A stretch of DNA of 7,076 bases from NCBI GenBank assembly GCA_017399225.1, contig JAFQEB010000017.1, positions 1 to 7,076 of the forward strand, written 5' to 3'. Position numbers and translations under genes: made by a program. This DNA comes from Clostridia bacterium (GTDB taxonomy: Bacteria; Bacillota_A; Clostridia; Christensenellales; Aristaeellaceae). The first letter of the stretch is position 1, and each line of letters begins with the position of its first letter. The notes below the pieces were generated by a model. It saw only the letters and a list, made by a program, of their open reading frames with translations, was not told the DNA's origin and did not search any database. Of the stretch, positions 10 to 7,076 are shown piece by piece.

Positions 10-1662
10 TCAGCACTCCAGCGCTTCCAGCGTGCAGGTTTTCGCGATGCTCTTACGGATCGCTGCGCGCAGCGGCAGCACGGCAGAGGGCGAAACGGAC
101 AGCTCATCGATCCCGATGGCCAGGAAGGTGGGCAGCATGCTCACATCCGCGCCCAGTTCTCCGCAGATGCCGATCCAGATACCAGCCTTGTGGGCTGCGT
201 CCGCCGCCATCTTGAGGGCGCGCAGCACGGCGGGGTGATGGGGGTCGAAGAACTTGCCCAGGTCATTGGCCTGGCGGTCGCAGGCCAGGGTGTACTGGGT
301 CAGGTCGTTGGTGCCCACGGAGAAGAAATCGACCTCCCGGGCCAGCTCCTCCGCCACGAAGACGGAGGCGGGCGTTTCGATCATCACGCCGATCTCCGTG
401 TCCTTGTTGAAGGGGATGCCTTCCTTCTCCAGCTCGGCCATGACCTTCTGGCAGGCGCGCTTGCACTCGCGCACCTCCCAGACGGAGGTGATCATCGGGA
501 ACATGATGGCGATCTTCCCGTAGGCCGATGCGCGGTACAGCGCGCGCAGCTGGGCGCGGAAGACCTCCGGGCGGTTCAGGCAGATGCGGATCGCCCGCAC
601 GCCCAGCGCAGGATTCTCCTCCTTCTTCATGTCGAAGTAGGCGACCTGCTTGTCCGCGCCGATATCCAGCGTACGGATGATGACCCGCTTGCCGTCCATG
701 GCGGCGGCGACGCTCTTGTAGGCCTCGAACTGCGTATCCTCGCTGGGATAGTCGTCCGCCGCGAGGTACAGGAACTCCGAGCGGAACAGGCCAATGCCCT
801 GCCCGTCGTTGGACAGCACCGCCGCCACATCCTCGGGAGAGCCGATGTTGCAGTACACATTGACCTTCTTGCCGTCCAGCGTCACGTCCTCCTGACCCTT
901 CATGGTCTGGTAGAGAGCGTTCATTTCCTGCTGGCGGGCATACTTTTCGCGCATGGTGGCCAGGGTCAACTCGTCCGGCTCCAGAACAACGCTGCCGGTT
1001 TCGCCGTCCACATAGGCAAAACGGCCCGCGTAGTCCGCCTTCAGCGCATCGCCCAGGCCGCAAACGGCAGGGATGCCCATCGTGCGGGCCAGGATGGCGG
1101 TGTGGCTGTTGCCGGAGCCGCCCTGGGTGACGAAGCCGAGGATCTTCGACTTGTCCAGCTGGATGGTCTCCGAGGGCGCGAGGTCGTCTGCGGCAACGAT
1201 GACCGGCTCGTCGGAGTCGATGCCGCCCTCGACCACGCCCATCAGGTTGTTCAGGATGCGGCGGGCCACATCGCGGATGTCAGCGGCGCGGGCCTGCATG
1301 TAGGCGTCATCCATCGCGGCAAACATGGCGGCGAACTGCTCACCGGCGGTCTGCACGGCGTACTCGGCGTTGCAGCCCTCCTCCATGGTGGAATGGATGC
1401 ACTCGACGAAGTCCTCGTCCTCCACGAACATCGCATGCGTCTCGAACAGCACAGCGGATTCGTCGCCCGCTTCCTCGCGGCAGCGCTCTGCCAGCGCTTC
1501 CAGCTGGGCAATGGCCTTCTCCTGCGCCTGCTGGAGGCGGGCCTGCTCGGCAGACAGGTCAGTGACGGTGGTCTTTACAACGGTCGTGTCCTGACGGCGG
1601 AAGAAGTACAGCGGCCCCTTCACAACGCCCTTGGATACGCCCTTACCCTGCATGAGAATCAT
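10..1662 (-). CDS. ptsI: PTS enzyme I (phosphoenolpyruvate-protein phosphotransferase)
   Basis: Cytoplasmic enzyme that autophosphorylates from PEP and passes the phosphate to HPr, the first step of all PTS uptake. The 550-residue product is full length for the family. The N-terminal half holds the HPr-binding and phosphohistidine domains, with the active-site motif GGSGNSHTAILAR placing the phospho-histidine at H187. The C-terminal PEP-binding barrel shows GLFRSEFLY (R294), RTLDIGADK (R330), the PEP-utiliser signature VGTNDLTQYTLACDR (about 449-463, N452/D453) and the catalytic cysteine in GICGELGAD (C500). All expected catalytic residues are present. ATG at 1662 is chosen because AGAGG (1671-1675) lies 8 nt upstream; the internal Met4 would be too far from it. 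It is the last visible gene of the operon, 30 nt after ptsH, and its TGA ends 9 bases from the window edge, so a terminator or further gene would lie outside. Family assignment is very secure. Confidence 0.97.
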   Translation of the reverse strand: MILMQGKGVSKGVVKGPLYFFRRQDTTVVKTTVTDLSAEQARLQQAQEKAIAQLEALAERCREEAGDESAVLFETHAMFVEDEDFVECIHSTMEEGCNAEYAVQTAGEQFAAMFAAMDDAYMQARAADIRDVARRILNNLMGVVEGGIDSDEPVIVAADDLAPSETIQLDKSKILGFVTQGGSGNSHTAILARTMGIPAVCGLGDALKADYAGRFAYVDGETGSVVLEPDELTLATMREKYARQQEMNALYQTMKGQEDVTLDGKKVNVYCNIGSPEDVAAVLSNDGQGIGLFRSEFLYLAADDYPSEDTQFEAYKSVAAAMDGKRVIIRTLDIGADKQVAYFDMKKEENPALGVRAIRICLNRPEVFRAQLRALYRASAYGKIAIMFPMITSVWEVRECKRACQKVMAELEKEGIPFNKDTEIGVMIETPASVFVAEELAREVDFFSVGTNDLTQYTLACDRQANDLGKFFDPHHPAVLRALKMAADAAHKAGIWIGICGELGADVSMLPTFLAIGIDELSVSPSAVLPLRAAIRKSIAKTCTLEALEC

Positions 1663-1692
1663 CTTTGATACCTCTTCCGTGTGTCAGTCTGA

Positions 1693-1953
1693 TCACAGAT
1701 TCGCCTTGAAGAAAGCTTCCATGGCAGCGATCGCAGCGTCCTCGTTCGCGCCGTCAGCCGTCACGGTCACCACGTCGCCCTGCTTCACGCCCAGGCTCAT
1801 CAGCTTCATCAGCTGGCTGGCCTTCACGGCATTGCCGCCCTTGGCGACGGTGATCACAGTGTCGGCAAAGGCCTTGGCTTCCTTGGCCAGCAGGACGGCG
1901 GGACGGGCATGGATGCCCAGCGCATCGGTAATGGTGTACTCAAACGTCTTCAT
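1693..1953 (-). CDS. ptsH: HPr phosphocarrier protein, atypical regulatory-serine region
   Basis: Small cytoplasmic phosphocarrier that receives phosphate from enzyme I on His15 and hands it to EIIA domains. The 86-residue length is normal. The motif GIHARPA places the active histidine exactly at residue 15, with Arg17 and Pro18 next to it. In Bacillota, HPr kinase normally phosphorylates Ser46 within a KSIMGVMSLG-type segment. Here the segment reads VKASQLMKLMSLGVKQGD. Anchored on MSLG, the Ser46 equivalent is Gln47, and a serine sits one place earlier at residue 46. Seryl regulation may therefore be lost or altered, which is an alignment-based inference. GGAGG at 1962-1966 sits 8 nt before the ATG. 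The gene starts 15 nt after malQ and is followed 30 nt later by ptsI, the usual ptsH-ptsI order. Family call is secure; whether it is the general HPr or one dedicated to this operon cannot be told from the window. Confidence 0.96.
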   Translation of the reverse strand: MKTFEYTITDALGIHARPAVLLAKEAKAFADTVITVAKGGNAVKASQLMKLMSLGVKQGDVVTVTADGANEDAAIAAMEAFFKANL

Positions 1954-1968
1954 CGTGGTGTCCTCCCT

Positions 1969-3519
1969 TTATTTCTCTGCCTTGTCGGCAGTGGTTTCCG
2001 TTTCTTCAGGTTCGTTGTCCCAGTTCAGGCGGCCGTAGCGCCTGGCTGTTTCGTGCATTTCCGTCTTCAGTGCATCGTTCAGCTGCTCCTGCGTGATGCG
2101 CCAGCGCCAGTTCTGTCCGACGGTGGACGGCTTGTTGATGCGTGCGCTGTTGTCCACGCCGAGGTAATCCTGCATGGGAATGATGCAGGTCTTCGCGGCG
2201 CTGCGCATGGCCAGTGCGATGAAGGAGCGGTGCAGGTATTTCGCAGGCGTGTGCTGGTCGCACAGGTAATCCCGCGCCATCTGTCGCTCTTCCTTGCTGA
2301 TGACGCTGAACCAGCCTGCCAGCGTTTCGTTGTCATGCGTGCCGGTGTAGGCGACGCTGTTGACGGGATAGTTGTGGGGCAGGTAGTCGCTGGCGGAGCC
2401 GGTGTCGCGGGCGTCGAAGGCGAACTCGAGCACCTTCATTCCCGGGAAGCCGCTGTCCCGCACCAGCTGCCGCACCGTGTCCGTCACATAGCCCAGATCC
2501 TCCGCGATCACCTCATGCCAGCCGAGATTCTGCTCCGCACAGCGGAACAGGTCAATGCCGGGGCCCTTTTCCCAGTGTCCGCCGATGGCCGTTTCCGCGC
2601 CGTAGGGGATGCTGTAATACTCGTCGAAGCCGCGAAAATGGTCGATGCGGGTCACGTCGTAGAGCTGATAGCAATACCACAGGCGGCTCAGCCACCACTG
2701 ATAGCCGGTCTCGCGGTGATAGTCCCAGCGATAGAGCGGATTGCCCCAGAGCTGGCCGGTCGCGGAGAAGCCGTCCGGCGGGCAGCCCGCCACGGCGATG
2801 GGCATGCAGCTCTCATCCAGCTGGAAAAGCTGCGGATTGGCCCAGGTATCGGCGCTGTCCATGGCAACGTAGATCGGGATATCGCCGATGAGCCTGATGT
2901 GATTCGCGTTGGCGTACTGCTTTAGCGCCCGGTACTGCTGGAAGAACTTGAACTGCAGGTACTTCTGGAACTCGATATCGTAGTACAGCTCGCGCCGGTA
3001 GTAGTCCAGCGCAAAGCCCCAGCGCAGGCGGATATCCTCCGGCCACTCGTACCAGCACTGGCCGCCGAAGAAGTTCTTCAGCGCCATGAACAGCGCGTAG
3101 TCCTCCAGCCACCAGGCGTTTTCGGAGGTAAAGCGCTGGTAGTCGCCGTTCTCCGCGATGCGGCTGCGCTCGTAGGCCCTGCGCAGCAGGGGGTAGCGGG
3201 CGTTGTAGAGCTTTTCGTAGTCAATGGCGGACGCGTCCGCACCAAAATCAGCTTCGTCGCATTCCGCCTGCGTCAGCACGCCTTCGTCGATCAGCGCTTC
3301 GAGGCTGATGAAGTAGGGGTTGCCCGCGAAGGTGGAAAAGCTCTGGTAGGGAGAGTCGCCGTAGGAGGTGGGGCAGATCGGCAGGAACTGCCAGAAGGTC
3401 TGGCCGGCCTCCTTCAGATAGTCCACAAATTCATAGGCGCACCGGTCAAAGCAGCCCACGCCGTATCGGGACGGCAGGCTGGTGATGGGCAGCAGCACGC
3501 CAGCAGCTCGGTTCATCAT
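1969..3519 (-). CDS. malQ: 4-alpha-glucanotransferase (amylomaltase, GH77)
   Basis: Cytoplasmic enzyme that moves alpha-1,4-glucan units between maltose and maltodextrins, releasing glucose. The 516 residues match single-domain GH77 amylomaltases. Family landmarks run in order: LLPITSLPSRYGVG near the N-terminus, GDSPYQSFSTFAGNPYF (54-70), IGDIPIYVAMDSAD (211-224), the nucleophile region RIDHFRGF (D293), the acid/base IAEDLG (E340), the transition-state Asp in GTHDNETL (D396), and the C-terminal ARINKPSTVGQNWRWR (459-474). Catalytic residues are intact. The last 15 residues are an acidic, threonine-rich tail outside the conserved fold. The start overlaps the mapP stop in ATGATGA. GGAGG (3527-3531) lies 7 nt before ATG 3519 and 10 nt before the second ATG at 3516, so 3519 is slightly favoured. 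The overlap suggests translational coupling. In this operon it would act on free maltose made by MapP, taking the place held by maltose phosphorylase in some related loci. Confidence 0.96.
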   Translation of the reverse strand: MMNRAAGVLLPITSLPSRYGVGCFDRCAYEFVDYLKEAGQTFWQFLPICPTSYGDSPYQSFSTFAGNPYFISLEALIDEGVLTQAECDEADFGADASAIDYEKLYNARYPLLRRAYERSRIAENGDYQRFTSENAWWLEDYALFMALKNFFGGQCWYEWPEDIRLRWGFALDYYRRELYYDIEFQKYLQFKFFQQYRALKQYANANHIRLIGDIPIYVAMDSADTWANPQLFQLDESCMPIAVAGCPPDGFSATGQLWGNPLYRWDYHRETGYQWWLSRLWYCYQLYDVTRIDHFRGFDEYYSIPYGAETAIGGHWEKGPGIDLFRCAEQNLGWHEVIAEDLGYVTDTVRQLVRDSGFPGMKVLEFAFDARDTGSASDYLPHNYPVNSVAYTGTHDNETLAGWFSVISKEERQMARDYLCDQHTPAKYLHRSFIALAMRSAAKTCIIPMQDYLGVDNSARINKPSTVGQNWRWRITQEQLNDALKTEMHETARRYGRLNWDNEPEETETTADKAEK

Positions 3520-4436
3520 TCGTCATCCTCCATATCGCTGTCAAAGTCGCCCCAGGGGGACTCTGGCTGCTTTGATGGTTCATTTCCATGGGGCAATGTC
3601 TCGATCATCACGCCGAAGTGGTCGGACACGACCGGATGATTCTCGCCGTTGAACACGACGCGGGAGACGGCGATCTTCTCCGGCAGCGAGCACCAGATCA
3701 GGTCGATGCGCATGCCCTCTGCGGCCGTATCGGCCATCTTGCCGCGCCAGCCGTCGATCACGCCAGGGACGGTCAGGCCGCTGTCATGCTCCTGTGCATA
3801 GCGGAAGGTGTCATACCAGCCGGTGGCGGCGATCTTGTCATAGCCCTCGCCGCGCACCTCTGCCGGGGAGTTGAAATCACCCAGCAGCCAGACTGGCGCA
3901 TGGCGCGGCTTGGTGGTCACAAAGGCGTTGAGCACCTTCCATTGGGCCAGGAACGGCTCCTGCTCGTCCTCCCACCAGCCCATGTGGACGGTGTAGAACC
4001 AGTCCGTCAGGCCTTCGACCTGCATGCCCAGCACCTTGCGGGTCTTCCAGTTGGCGTAGTCGTCCGCGCGGCTGATGAGGAAGCTCTCCACATGGGAGAT
4101 CTCCCGCTCCAGCACCAGCATCGCCAGACCCTCGTCGTACTTGCCGTAGCCCACCTTGATGGGCAGATAGGTCCAGCTGCACGGAACGCCTGCTTCCCGC
4201 AGGAGCTTCGCGACATTGGCGACATGGTTGTCCGCCCGGACGGGAACGGCGGTCTGTGCCGGCACGTAGCCGGTCAGCAGCGCTTCGTCCGCCAGGGGGG
4301 CGGCGATGGTCTGGTTGACCTCCTGCAGCGCAACAACGTCCGGCATTTCTTCCAGCACGCCGCGCACGAACTGCTGCAGCTTCTCCGCGTAGTTCTTCTC
4401 CACCAGAGAATGGGTATTGAGCGTCATGATCTTCAT
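3516..4436 (-). CDS. mapP: Endonuclease/exonuclease/phosphatase-fold protein, probable maltose-6'-phosphate phosphatase
   Basis: A 306-residue protein of the DNase I-like metal-dependent superfamily, with no signal peptide. Visible catalytic motifs are LNTH (N7), LQEVN (metal-binding E39), YTVHMGWW (H151), LLGDFNSP (D187, N189), RIDLIW (D245) and VVSDHFGV (D272, H273). The full superfamily set is therefore present and the protein should be an active phosphoesterase. The segments around VGYGKYDEG (95-103), NWKTRKV (129-135) and HMGWWEDEQEPFLAQW (151-166) resemble, from memory, the MapP group found beside maltose PTS permeases in Enterococcus and relatives. MapP hydrolyses maltose-6'-phosphate to maltose. 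Position between a PTS permease and malQ fits this role better than DNA repair. The last 25 or so residues are a divergent acidic tail. GGGAGG (4444-4449) lies 7 nt before the ATG, partly inside a hairpin. The superfamily is certain; the MapP substrate is inferred from context and remembered similarity. Confidence 0.8.
   Translation of the reverse strand: MKIMTLNTHSLVEKNYAEKLQQFVRGVLEEMPDVVALQEVNQTIAAPLADEALLTGYVPAQTAVPVRADNHVANVAKLLREAGVPCSWTYLPIKVGYGKYDEGLAMLVLEREISHVESFLISRADDYANWKTRKVLGMQVEGLTDWFYTVHMGWWEDEQEPFLAQWKVLNAFVTTKPRHAPVWLLGDFNSPAEVRGEGYDKIAATGWYDTFRYAQEHDSGLTVPGVIDGWRGKMADTAAEGMRIDLIWCSLPEKIAVSRVVFNGENHPVVSDHFGVMIETLPHGNEPSKQPESPWGDFDSDMEDDE
3519..3531 (-). promoter_or_regulatory. 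malQ ribosome binding site and overlap with the mapP stop
   Basis: GGAGG (3531-3527) inside the end of mapP lies 7 nt before ATG 3519. The junction reads ATGATGA: the first ATG overlaps the mapP TGA by three bases, the second by one. This arrangement allows a terminating ribosome to restart on malQ and supports coupled synthesis of the two enzymes. Confidence 0.7.
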
Positions 4437-4446
4437 GAGAATGCCT

Positions 4447-4486
4447 CCCTTCGGGAAGGGGCGGCGCAGCAGCTTACCGCGCCGCC
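4447..4486 (-). other. Two adjacent GC-rich hairpins between malT and mapP
   Basis: In the malT-mapP transcript, arms at 4486-4479 and 4467-4460 (GGCGGCGC/GCGCCGCC, 8 bp) enclose an 11-nt loop. Directly after it, 4460-4456 pairs with 4451-4447 (CCCTT/AAGGG, loop of 4), the two helices sharing only base 4460. The 3' arm of the second hairpin overlaps the mapP ribosome binding site GGGAGG (4449-4444). No U-tract follows, so this is not an intrinsic terminator. Likely roles are protecting the 3' end of malT mRNA after cleavage and lowering mapP translation relative to malT. Confidence 0.55.
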
Positions 4487-4493
4487 GGGGTTA

Positions 4494-6683
4494 TCAAAGA
4501 ATGTCGTTGATGTCGGACTTGATCACGTCAGCCTTGGGGCCGTAAACTGCCTGGATGCCATTGCCCTTGACGAGCAGGGACATGGCGCCCTCCGCCTTCC
4601 ATGCGTCCTTGTCTGCAACCTTGGCCGCATCCTTGACGGTCACGCGCAGACGGGTCATGCAGGCGTCCACCAGAGTGATGTTCTCCCGGCCGCCCAGCAG
4701 CGCGATGATCCGCTCCGCCTGGCTGCCTTCCTTGCCGGCGGCCGCGTTCTGCTGTGCAACGGTCGCGGGCTCTTCGGCACTTTCATCGTTGTAGTTGCCC
4801 AGACGGCCGGGCGTGGCAAACTTCATCTTGCCGATCATGAAGTAGGCCACAGCATAGCCGATGCCAAGGAACACCACGCAGGCGATGATAAAATTGATGA
4901 TGTCGCCGCCCAGACCTGCCTTCAGGCTCATGGGCACGCGGGTCAGGAACTCCAGGTTGCCGAAGGAATGCAGGCGCAGGTCAACGATGCCCGCCAGCGC
5001 GAAGGCACAGCCCTGCAGGATCGCATAGACGATGTACAGCGGCAGCGCGCAGAACATGAACATGAACTCGATCGGCTCCGTCACGCCGGTGAGGAACACC
5101 GCCAGGGTGGTGGAAATGAACATGGAACGGTAGCGCTTGCGCTTATCAGGATCAACGCGGCGATACATCGCCAGCGCTACGCCCATCAGCAGACCGGTTG
5201 CACCGATCATCTGACCCACCTTGAAGCGGGCGGGAATGACGGTCGCCATCAGGTTCTCAGCAGCGGCCACGTTGCCGGCGTCCTTGAAATTGATCAGGTC
5301 GGTCACCCAGGCCAGCCACAGGGGATCCTGACCATAGACCATGGTTCCCGCAGATGCGCCGGTCTGGATCAGGTATTCGCCGCCGAAGGAAGTGTAATTC
5401 ATGGGGATGGTGAGCATGTGGTGCAGACCGAAGGGCAGCAGCAGACGCTCCAGGGTTCCGTAGATGAAAGGAGCCAGCACGGGAGAGGTTTCGGAGGAAT
5501 TGGCGATCCACACGCCGAAGGCATTGATGCCGGACTGGATCAGCGGCCAGATCACGGAAAGCACCAGGGAGATCACCACAGAGTAAGCGATGACCATCAG
5601 GGGCACGAAGCGCTTGCCGTTGAAGAAGGCCAGCGCATCCGGCAGTTTGCGGAAGTTGTAGAACTTGTTGTACACCACGCCGCCGACAAAGCCAGCGATG
5701 ATGCCGATGAACACGCCCATGTTCAGCGCGGGGCGGCCCAGGACTTCCGTGAAGTAATTCTCCACCAGCATCTCCTGGCCGAAGAGGCTGTGCACCACCG
5801 CGCCCTCGGTCGCGAGCATATCGCTGGTCACGCCAAAGACGGAGCCGGTGATGCAGTTGATGAGCACGAAGGCGATGATTGCCGCAAACGCGCCGCCTGC
5901 GCGTTCCTTGGCCCAGCTGCCGCCGATGGCTGCTGCAAACAGGATGTGCAGATTGCCGATGATGGCCCAGCCGATCTGCTCCATGGTCGCGCCGATGGTC
6001 ATGAGGATCGACACATCCGCACCAGCCATCTGGATCAGCTTACCGATGGAGAGCATCAGACCTGCGGCAGGCATGACCGCGATGACCGTCATGAGCACCT
6101 TGCCCAGCTTCTGAAGGAAGTCAAAGTTGATCTTGCCCTTCTTCTCGGACGCTTCGGGCTTCACTGCCGGCTTTGCTTCCGGCTTCGCGGCAGGCTCATC
6201 TTTGGCAGGCTCTGCCGCATCGTCCTTCAGGGTGATCACAGCATGCTGACCGGCAGTCACATGGCTGCTGGCAGGGCAGAGCTGCTTTTCATCCGCGCCG
6301 TCGCAGATGATGACGGGCGTGATGGTGTTCAGGCCCTGGGCCTTGATGTAATCGAGGTCGATTTCGGCTACCAGATCGCCGACCTTCACCCGGTCGCCTT
6401 CCTTGACACAGGGCTTGAATCCCTCGCCCTTGAGGCCCACGGTGTCCAGACCCACATGGACCAGGATTTCAAGGCCGTCATCTGAGGTGAAGCCGTAGGC
6501 ATGGAGCGTCTCGGCAACCGTAGAGATCTCGCCGTTCACGGGGCTGTACAGCTTGCCGTCATCGGGAATGATGGCCACGCCGTCGCCCAGCACCTTCTGG
6601 GAGAACACCTCGTCCGGCACTTCGCTCAGCAGTACGGGTTGTCCGCTCAGTGGGGCGATGACCATTTGCAACTTGTTCGTCAT
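4494..6683 (-). CDS. malT: PTS sugar permease EIIA-EIIC-EIIB, glucose/maltose family (probable maltose PTS MalT)
   Basis: A 729-residue membrane permease that imports and phosphorylates its sugar. The N-terminal EIIA(Glc) domain (about 1-152) has the histidine pair H61 and H76; H76 in VHVGLDTVGLKGEGF is the phosphorylated one. An Ala/Pro/Lys/Glu linker follows (about 154-184). The EIIC domain (about 185-620) begins FDFLQKLGKVLMTVIAVMPA, has about ten hydrophobic segments, and carries the family motif TGVTEPIEF (532-540). After a second hydrophilic linker, EIIB (about 653-729) holds the phosphocysteine in DACMTRLRV (C675). No active residue is missing. A-C-B order is that of streptococcal and enterococcal MalT/PtsG-type permeases. 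The adjacent phosphatase and malQ favour maltose over glucose, but the sequence alone does not fix the substrate, and ptsG is the alternative name. Here malT means a permease, not the E. coli activator. AGAGG (6694-6698) precedes the ATG by 10 nt. It ends in tandem stops TGA TAA. Confidence 0.92.
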   Translation of the reverse strand: MTNKLQMVIAPLSGQPVLLSEVPDEVFSQKVLGDGVAIIPDDGKLYSPVNGEISTVAETLHAYGFTSDDGLEILVHVGLDTVGLKGEGFKPCVKEGDRVKVGDLVAEIDLDYIKAQGLNTITPVIICDGADEKQLCPASSHVTAGQHAVITLKDDAAEPAKDEPAAKPEAKPAVKPEASEKKGKINFDFLQKLGKVLMTVIAVMPAAGLMLSIGKLIQMAGADVSILMTIGATMEQIGWAIIGNLHILFAAAIGGSWAKERAGGAFAAIIAFVLINCITGSVFGVTSDMLATEGAVVHSLFGQEMLVENYFTEVLGRPALNMGVFIGIIAGFVGGVVYNKFYNFRKLPDALAFFNGKRFVPLMVIAYSVVISLVLSVIWPLIQSGINAFGVWIANSSETSPVLAPFIYGTLERLLLPFGLHHMLTIPMNYTSFGGEYLIQTGASAGTMVYGQDPLWLAWVTDLINFKDAGNVAAAENLMATVIPARFKVGQMIGATGLLMGVALAMYRRVDPDKRKRYRSMFISTTLAVFLTGVTEPIEFMFMFCALPLYIVYAILQGCAFALAGIVDLRLHSFGNLEFLTRVPMSLKAGLGGDIINFIIACVVFLGIGYAVAYFMIGKMKFATPGRLGNYNDESAEEPATVAQQNAAAGKEGSQAERIIALLGGRENITLVDACMTRLRVTVKDAAKVADKDAWKAEGAMSLLVKGNGIQAVYGPKADVIKSDINDIL

Positions 6684-6699: not shown

Positions 6700-6714
6700 T
6701 TTCATCGTTTGCAT
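6700..6714 (-). promoter_or_regulatory. cre-like / MalR-like site next to the malT ribosome binding site
   Basis: On the minus strand, ATGCAAACGATGAAA matches the CcpA catabolite-response consensus WTGNAARCGNWWWCA at 13 of 15 positions; the left half ATGCAAACG is perfect. The GCAAACG half is also shared with LacI-type MalR operators, so either CcpA or the divergent regulator could bind. It lies just upstream of AGAGG, where a bound protein could block elongation from an upstream promoter. It coincides with the last unit of the 11-bp array, so independent significance is uncertain. Confidence 0.45.
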
Positions 6715-6768
6715 TAGAATTGCAGAAAGTTTGCATATAAAATGTACCAAATTTGCATAAATATTGCA
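6703..6768 (-). repeat. Tandem 11-bp-phased TGCAA array upstream of malT (six units)
   Basis: Read on the minus strand, the 5-mer TGCAA begins at 6768, 6757, 6735, 6724 and 6713, every one on an exact 11-bp grid. The sixth grid position, 6746, holds the degenerate TACAT. Each unit continues with an AT-rich 6-mer, giving an approximate consensus TGCAAwtttww. The phase puts every copy on about the same face of the helix. Such 11-bp direct repeats are typical binding sites of OmpR/PhoB-type winged-helix regulators, but no such regulator is in the window and the binding protein is unknown. The last unit merges with the cre-like site beside the malT ribosome binding site. Confidence 0.75.
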
Positions 6769-6781
6769 ATGCTCTTTCTGG

Positions 6782-6850: not shown

Positions 6851-6878
6851 TGCAAAATTTACGCAAATCGCCGTGCAA
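6851..6878 (+). repeat. Short TGCAA-type repeat cluster upstream of the regulator promoter
   Basis: TGCAA (6851-6855), CGCAA (6862-6866) and TGCAA (6874-6878) follow one another at 11 and 12 bp, ending 16 bp before the regulator's -35. They have the same sense relative to the regulator gene as the malT array has relative to malT. It is a looser version of that array and may be chance enrichment in AT-rich DNA, but the shared motif and spacing argue for the same binding protein. Confidence 0.45.
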
Positions 6879-6894
6879 TTCCTTGAAAACACAT

Positions 6895-6923
6895 TTGACA
6901 AATTCGACATCTTTCGCTACAAT
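6895..6923 (+). promoter_or_regulatory. Sigma-A promoter of the LacI-family regulator
   Basis: A perfect -35 hexamer TTGACA (6895-6900) is followed after exactly 17 nt by TACAAT (6918-6923), one mismatch from the consensus -10. Transcription should start near 6930, giving a leader of about 40 nt that includes the AAGGAG ribosome binding site at 6956-6961. The spacer contains AATTCGACA (6901-6909), a half-site also found at the malT promoter, which suggests autoregulation. Confidence 0.85.
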
Positions 6924-6968: not shown

Positions 6969-7076
6969 ATGGCAGTAACGATCAAGGATGTTGCAGCGCT
7001 TGCAGGCGTTTCGCCGTCAACTGTTTCACGCGTATGCAACGACAATCCATCTATCAGCAAGGAGACACGCGACAGG
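6969..7076 (+). CDS. LacI-family transcriptional regulator, N-terminal part (probable MalR-like repressor)
   Basis: Only the first 36 codons lie in the window; the reading frame is open at the edge. They form the LacI-type helix-turn-helix: TIKDVAALAGVSPSTVSRV (residues 4-22), followed by CNDNPSISKETRDR, with the usual positions for the two helices and the start of the third. AAGGAG (6956-6961) lies 7 nt before the ATG, fixing the start. The recognition helix with VSPSTVSRV resembles streptococcal MalR regulators, but the effector-binding domain is not seen, so ligand and name are inference. It is transcribed away from the PTS operon and shares a 285-bp intergenic region with it, the usual arrangement for a local repressor controlling a sugar operon and often itself. 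Codon use looks less GC-biased than in the operon, though the sample is too short to weigh. Confidence 0.93.
   Translation, partial: MAVTIKDVAALAGVSPSTVSRVCNDNPSISKETRDR

Follow-up and report, generated by a model that had tools for sequence, protein, structure and literature searches.

In the stretch of DNA analysed here, referred to as the window (7,076 nucleotides), five exact copies of TGCAA lie on one 11-bp grid over the promoter-like sequence of a sugar-uptake (PTS) operon from Clostridia. We read this array, with a probability of roughly three in four, as the binding region of a hinge-degenerate, CytR-like repressor of the LacI family that would occlude the PTS promoter via helically phased half-sites. 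The array is real and conserved, and judged from its sequence it looks functional. The point of interest is the joint change of regulator hinge and operator type among the relatives of the encoded regulator.

Results and Discussion

Genes of the window and position of the array

The features of the window are collected in Table 1. Besides an EII of the glucose type and a member of the Exo_endo_phos family, the operon (10-6683) encodes HPr and enzyme I of its own, and its first gene is presumably the one called malT in the first-pass annotation. The divergent regulator gene is cut by the window end, and its full-length relative L001:464-1489 combines a LacI-type HTH (Pfam LacI, 62.3 bits) with a sugar-binding core (Peripla_BP_3, 116.4 bits) and thus belongs to the LacI/GalR family.

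Table 1: Features of the window, with strand and supporting evidence or context.
Feature	Position	Strand	Evidence or context
PTS EIIA-EIIC-EIIB gene, first in the operon presumed to be controlled	4494..6683	-	TIGR02003, 866.6 bits against a cut-off of 649.85; Pfam
Exo_endo_phos-family protein	3516-4436	-	downstream of PTS EII gene
4-alpha-glucanotransferase	1969-3519	-	downstream of PTS EII gene
HPr	1693-1953	-	downstream of PTS EII gene
PTS enzyme I	10-1662	-	downstream of PTS EII gene
Unit 6, TGCAA	6709..6713	-	sequence
Unit 5, TGCAA	6720..6724	-	sequence
Unit 4, TGCAA, close to inferred start site	6731..6735	-	sequence
Proposed -10 hexamer TACATT (TG one base ahead)	6741..6746	-	17 nt past TTGCAA; unoccupied grid position
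Unit 2, TGCAA, within the -35/-10 spacer	6753..6757	-	sequence
Unit 1, TTGCAA, doubling as the candidate -35 box of the PTS operon	6764..6769	-	sequence
LacI-side array: TGCAA 6851, CGCAA 6862, TGCAA 6874; spacing 11 and 12	6851..6878	+	just upstream of lacI promoter
lacI promoter candidate, TTGACA-17-TACAAT	6895..6923	+	11 of 12 matches
LacI-family regulator gene, 5' end, cut by window end	6969..7076	+	NCBIfam LacI-family matches

On the minus strand the TGCAA units start at 6768, 6757, 6735, 6724 and 6713 and share the same 11-bp grid (span 6768-6709); read on the plus strand they are TTGCA, starting at 6709, 6720, 6731, 6753 and 6764. The array had first been described as six-unit, with five exact copies on one grid. 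The five copies and their grid are borne out by the unit positions and by dinucleotide-preserving shuffles, whereas the remaining grid position (6742-6746) holds no TGCAA unit and coincides with TACATT, which we propose as the -10 hexamer (6746-6741 on the minus strand). When the 285-bp intergenic region was shuffled 20,000 times with dinucleotides preserved, three units on an 11-bp phase were obtained in 5 shuffles and four in none, and even if any 5-mer and any period of 9-12 was allowed, the maximum in 3,000 shuffles was three units compared to the five observed. TGCAA is not unusually frequent across the whole window (20 copies counting both strands versus 16.9 expected); the non-chance property is the phasing.

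On the lacI side, 6851-6868 repeats the sequence of 6751-6768 in inverted orientation, with 89% complementarity over 18 nt. Two more inverted pairs are found in the intergenic region, namely TGTCGAATT... (including TCGAATT) at 6796-6812/6893-6909 and AAACGATG... at 6700-6710/6825-6835. Both are largely kept in L001 and L002; L116 does not keep them, and they were rejected as operator candidates for this reason.

A promoter underneath the array is suggested by the relatives. In 43 occurrences of TTGCA-N7-YGCAA, the hexamer lying 17 nt behind the initial six bases resembles TATAAT, with a mean of 4.09 of 6 matches, compared to at most 2.84 at the other offsets from 10 to 29. Of the 80 regions (best 80 of 200 loci), 40 contain TTGCA-N7-YGCAA, and 33 of these 40 show at least 4 of 6 TATAAT matches 17 nt on. 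From this trend we propose TTGCAA-17-TACATT as the promoter in the window; all six columns of TACATT are invariant across the window, L001, L002 and L116. Along the grid the order would then be -35, spacer, the unoccupied -10 position, start site and two early transcribed units. An mRNA-leader location of the array, as suggested in the first-pass annotation for a start at the upstream candidate promoter, would be at most half true: the last three units would fall at or after the putative start site, but the first unit is the proposed -35 hexamer and the promoter would lie inside the array.

Conservation in related PTS loci

A scan of genome contigs with an alignment of PTS relatives provided the loci, of which the best 80 of 200 were retained, with identities of 67-97%. 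Spacings were counted in 77 distinct upstream regions, with L012 (upstream sequence the same as in L002), L028 and L046 (less than 150 nt) and the window itself left out. Within this set from the best 80 of 200 loci, motif and phase are kept at the orthologous PTS promoters: TGCAA-N6-TGCAA is present in 32 of the 77 regions, and the same-strand TGCAA pair at 11 bp is at the top of all 1024 5-mers, followed by the overlapping GCAAA with 14 of 77 regions. In the same set, TGCAA pairs at spacings 6-10 and 12-19 occur in only 0-6 of the 77 regions, and those at 20 and 21, corresponding to two turns, in 15 and 16.

The periodicity extends over several turns. Counting CGCAA and both orientations as units, the 371 units of the 41 loci with a hinge-degenerate regulator (see below) form a comb of distances at 10-13 (peak at 11), 20-24, 30-35, 41-45 and 51-55. 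The best period for these loci is 10.8 with a score of 13.25 (at most 2.63 in 300 shuffles) and for the 23 hinge-bearing loci 10.7 with a score of 9.19 (at most 2.41 in shuffles), both scores being inflated by kinship; a less redundant subset of 11 regions out of the 41 gives 6.53 compared to at most 3.17 in 1000 random placements.

In the window, L001, L002 and L116, 23 of the 25 columns within units are invariant versus 20 of 35 in the rest of the array, and the two varying unit columns are changes of the first base from T to C. Across the PTS arrays TGCAA is kept, while the spacers vary and the orientation of units flips among relatives. The conserved motif and the phase of about 10.8 bp support the original proposal that a sequence-specific protein would recognise the units along one face of the helix.

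A LacI-type gene accompanies the array

Of 79 distinct loci (best 80 of 200), 64 encode a LacI ortholog no more than 700 nt upstream, and another 4 encode it at a greater upstream distance of up to 2.3 kb; in the aligned part, the orthologs share 52-100% identity with the L001 protein. All of these loci (64/64 and 4/4, best 80 of 200) show at least two TGCAA/TTGCA matches, with TTGCAA scored as two. Seven loci with more than 1 kb of upstream sequence (2-4 kb) are without LacI there. Five of them (L022, L048, L067, L077, L080) have 0-1 matches, and the remaining two (L047, L079) have the array, with the ortholog located elsewhere in the genome according to a whole-genome search. By the same kind of search (E 1e-60) the ortholog was not found in the genomes of L067, L077 and L080, and L022 and L048 are further PTS copies with the ortholog at another place in their genomes. 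Four loci (L017, L028, L046, L049) have too little upstream sequence to be scored; in three of these, L017, L028 and L049, all of them draft assemblies, the motif is present and the ortholog was not found. The array is intact in L017:1-726, with no LacI match in the 726 nt upstream. Another reading frame in L017:1-726 resembles, by eye only, a mobile-element gene.

The array had originally been taken to point away from LacI, with another class of regulator proposed instead. This is not supported: a LacI-type gene accompanies the array, TGCAA is a half-site of MalR and CytR, CytR is reported to use direct repeats and variable spacing, and the type of operator tracks the hinge of the regulator. 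The class first proposed is probably wrong. In addition, all 66 aligned regulators carry Ser-Thr-(Val/Ala)-Ser-Arg in the HTH, and in a family survey the HTH arginine goes along with G in the half-site (PMC2978694), the match in numbering being our own.

Hinge class and operator class change together

The regulators fall into two classes, defined from the 64 full-length proteins of the best 80 of 200 loci: 23 are hinge-bearing and 41, including that of L001, are hinge-degenerate. The classes do not include 15 of the 79 loci, for which there was no full-length LacI (L004, L017, L022, L028, L034, L038, L046-L049, L067, L070, L077, L079, L080), nor a second copy of LacI in L019. Hinge-bearing proteins possess an EPNFQASNLASQNSRT-like hinge that aligns without gaps and Leu on Leu with CcpA (the query being partly typed), a protein with inverted TGWAA or TGTAA half-sites, and their linker is 16 aa long in 22 of 23 cases. 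In the hinge-degenerate class (n=41) the motif is absent and replaced by a Pro/Ser/Ala/Glu-rich linker of 13-20 aa; at the sequence level the hinge helix motif PNxxAxxL does not occur in the L001 linker EQAIPAEEPITPTFRM. The lacI of the window is cut before the hinge and was assigned to the hinge-degenerate class via its relative L001.

A CpG-centred palindrome, TGCAANCGNTTGCR with the pattern [CT]GCAANCGNTTGC[AG], is located between lacI and the PTS gene in 23 of 23 hinge-bearing loci among the best 80 of 200. It is present in 0 of 41 hinge-degenerate loci, so that these have no inverted-repeat operator with a central CG of this pattern. The counts are identical for the 300 nt before the PTS start and for the whole lacI-PTS interval. 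Likewise, a CG centre is found in 29 of 32 half-site palindromes of 14 bp in the hinge-bearing class and in 0 of 2 in the hinge-degenerate class. Direct pairs at 11 bp occur in 33 of 41 hinge-degenerate loci and in 7 of 23 hinge-bearing ones; since they are missing from 8 of the 41 and present in these 7, hinge loss is not strictly required for such pairs, nor does it suffice.

A later check used 26 loci from wider genome searches, of which 16 non-duplicates remained after 10 had been dropped at >98% identity, and covered 450 nt beside lacI; L167, with a partial LacI, was left out. The CpG palindrome was found in 0 of 8 hinge-degenerate loci (in one of these, L152, lacI is away from a target), and four of the eight carry a 14-bp palindrome without CG. 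The unlinked PTS gene belonging to L152 (L169) has a unit array without the CpG palindrome. On the hinge-bearing side the exact palindrome is present in 4 of 8 loci (L148, L150, L162, L163), and L165 shows one mismatch with the CG kept; in L120, L121 and L156 lacI is not beside any target. L047 and L079, found again as L171 and L170, supply the PTS promoters of the genomes to which L120 and L121 belong, and these promoters do carry the CpG palindrome; a PTS gene was not found in the genome of L156. The wider genomes hold no clear exception to the pairing of hinge and palindrome. L148 and L150 are near-copies in which a hinge-bearing lacI is divergent to a gene start resembling, by eye, a 4-alpha-glucanotransferase, with the CpG palindrome in between, an arrangement that would tie the regulator to glucan use.

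In a tree calculated without the hinge columns, hinge and operator class change together about three times on the best tree, while well-supported branches force only one change; independent pairs number one on starred branches and three on all branches. With an outgroup, and thinned by seven rows (L014, L018, L043, L044, L057, L076, L150), the best quick tree shows 5-6 changes, still with one forced and with long outgroup branches, and rooting with 15 paralogues did not settle the ancestral hinge state. With so few class changes, 23/23 versus 0/41 does not amount to 64 independent tests, and both patterns, hinge and palindrome, were written after sight of the sequences; the covariation is complete but based on few events. 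AlphaFold2 models did not separate the classes, with pLDDT <50 over residues 48-58 and 48-59; the hinge helix may fail to form in a DNA-free monomer of either class.

Alternative explanations

Could an unlinked regulator of 11-bp direct repeats, for example an OmpR-family response regulator, use the array while LacI binds at another site? OmpR-type proteins such as PhoP bind direct repeats, and operators of this family resemble the array in having 11-bp direct repeats near a promoter. The same bacteria offer a likely case in the TGCAA array of L082, which lies by kinase and OmpR-type genes and has similar counterparts in L083, L094 and L096. However, the L082 array also repeats its 6-bp spacers, whereas in the PTS arrays the spacers are not conserved and units flip orientation; moreover, the CpG palindrome tracks the hinge of LacI. 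We therefore regard an unlinked regulator as unlikely. A smaller chance still is given to a role of the units in the promoter itself or in DNA shape, as a TTGCAA -35 box and phased curvature, in place of a repressor operator. Phased sequence can bend DNA, and the frequent TATAAT-like hexamer behind TTGCA-N7-YGCAA described above would fit a promoter role, but the units reach past the putative start site and to the lacI side, consist of a fixed GC-containing word and not of A-tracts, and number no more than one at each of the five PTS genes without lacI in the examined upstream DNA.

Even less probable is an action of the repeats in the mRNA leader through an RNA-binding protein or RNA structure. 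Three units would lie at or after the putative start site, but two are at the -35 and in the spacer, the orientation differs among relatives, and no Rfam family reaches the gathering score in the window, L001 or L082. Chance or AT-richness, which the low GC content of the intergenic region (36%) might bring to mind, has a negligible probability: in line with the earlier remark that AT-richness alone hardly explains the array, four units arose in none of the 20,000 shuffles, and the phase is kept in distant relatives.

Proposed mechanism and comparison to known systems

In our preferred reading, the LacI/MalR-type repressor encoded by the divergent gene would use the array as its operator, and each TGCAA, as well as CGCAA, would serve as the half-site of one monomer. 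The ordinary hinge-helix motif normally puts its leucine into the central CpG and thereby holds both half-sites in a tight palindromic arrangement; with this motif absent in the present lineage, a loose linker could allow the DNA-binding heads to use half-sites in either orientation as long as they are on one helix face, and the operator might thus have become a row of half-sites one turn apart. We infer that the repressor, as a dimer or of higher order and in whatever number of molecules, would bind over the -35, the spacer, the putative start site and the early transcribed region of the PTS operon, which would exclude RNA polymerase and result in repression until a sugar ligand releases the protein. 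The shorter row by the lacI promoter suggests autoregulation, and a hinge-bearing ortholog of the L069 type would be expected to prefer TGCAAGCGGTTGCA. That this LacI lineage lost its hinge helix repeatedly, with the CpG palindrome giving way each time to a multi-unit row occupied by several repressors side by side, is a tentative extension on which we would not yet bet. If true, the repeated loss would amount to an experiment done by nature in which hinge insertion and head recognition are uncoupled.

MalR from Streptococcus pneumoniae likewise has the half-site YGCAA, and its targets are maltosaccharide genes and ptsG, with the operator CGCAAACGTTTKSG and the ptsG site TGCAAACGTTTTCG (PMC4451989). 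The MalR sites quoted there are single and palindrome-like, mostly with a CpG centre (PMC4451989). The window has no site of this kind, and the likeness to MalR is one of half-site and target genes. The arrangement also resembles that of E. coli CytR, which shares the half-site TGCAA/TTGCA in inverted or direct repeats with variable spacing that favours one helix face; its operators are described as TGCAA-N2-3-TTGCA or direct repeats, with large spacers that tend to whole helical turns (PMC3454398). The flexible linker of CytR is held responsible for the variable spacing (PMC5263246). In terms of sequence arrangement, direct or inverted half-sites on one helix face are also what is found here. 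Yet CytR works together with CRP between CRP sites, and its conserved direct repeats are described as two half-sites with 1-bp spacers (PMC3454398), in contrast to five half-sites in 11-bp steps over the promoter-like sequence itself. CcpA with its cre and cre-var sites is another LacI-family protein of Gram-positive bacteria for which flexible spacing is reported (PMC5263246).

In a survey of 1303 LacI-family regulators, whose motifs were sought as palindromes, 1251 gave even palindromes, and a CG stood at the centre in 1173 (PMC4052901). In another, the hinge leucine and the central CG were too conserved for covariation to resolve their link, as its authors say (PMC2978694). Here, hinge leucine and central CG both vary, and they do so together. 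The lineage provides natural protein-operator pairs, some with the hinge and some lacking it, for measuring the effect of the hinge on spacing and orientation of half-sites, and it suggests that searches restricted to palindromes overlook some LacI operators. Within the portions of the open-licence PMC literature consulted, CytR is the only LacI-family member with a recognised direct-repeat operator, and novelty is thus not proved.

TGCAA arrays and CpG palindromes elsewhere in the relatives

A search of six genomes for TGCAA-N6-TGCAA-N6-TGCAA retrieved the PTS array in G001 and a kinase/ABC array in G003 and G005, and nothing in the other three. The shorter TTGCAA-N6-TGCAA has matches, unsorted, in 27 of 29 genomes and the CpG palindrome in 11 of 29. 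By contig and position, the 19 loci L125-L143 divide into 10 PTS promoters and 9 sites elsewhere. The nine CpG palindromes outside PTS promoters (L126, L127, L129, L132, L135, L137, L139, L141, L143) come from 7 of the 29 genomes. These include three genomes of hinge-degenerate loci (G003, G004, G021), which our preferred reading leaves unexplained; the nine sites may represent additional targets or be used by other LacI proteins.

A separate TGCAA array on an 11-bp grid is found in L082:1500-1541, with the repeated spacers TGCAAGGTTAA/TGCAAGATTGG (GGTTAA/GATTGG). A histidine-kinase gene, preceded by a gene for an OmpR-type regulator, ends on one side of this array, and a gene for an ABC-transporter ATPase lies on the other; the array is probably the operator of the neighbouring OmpR-type response regulator.
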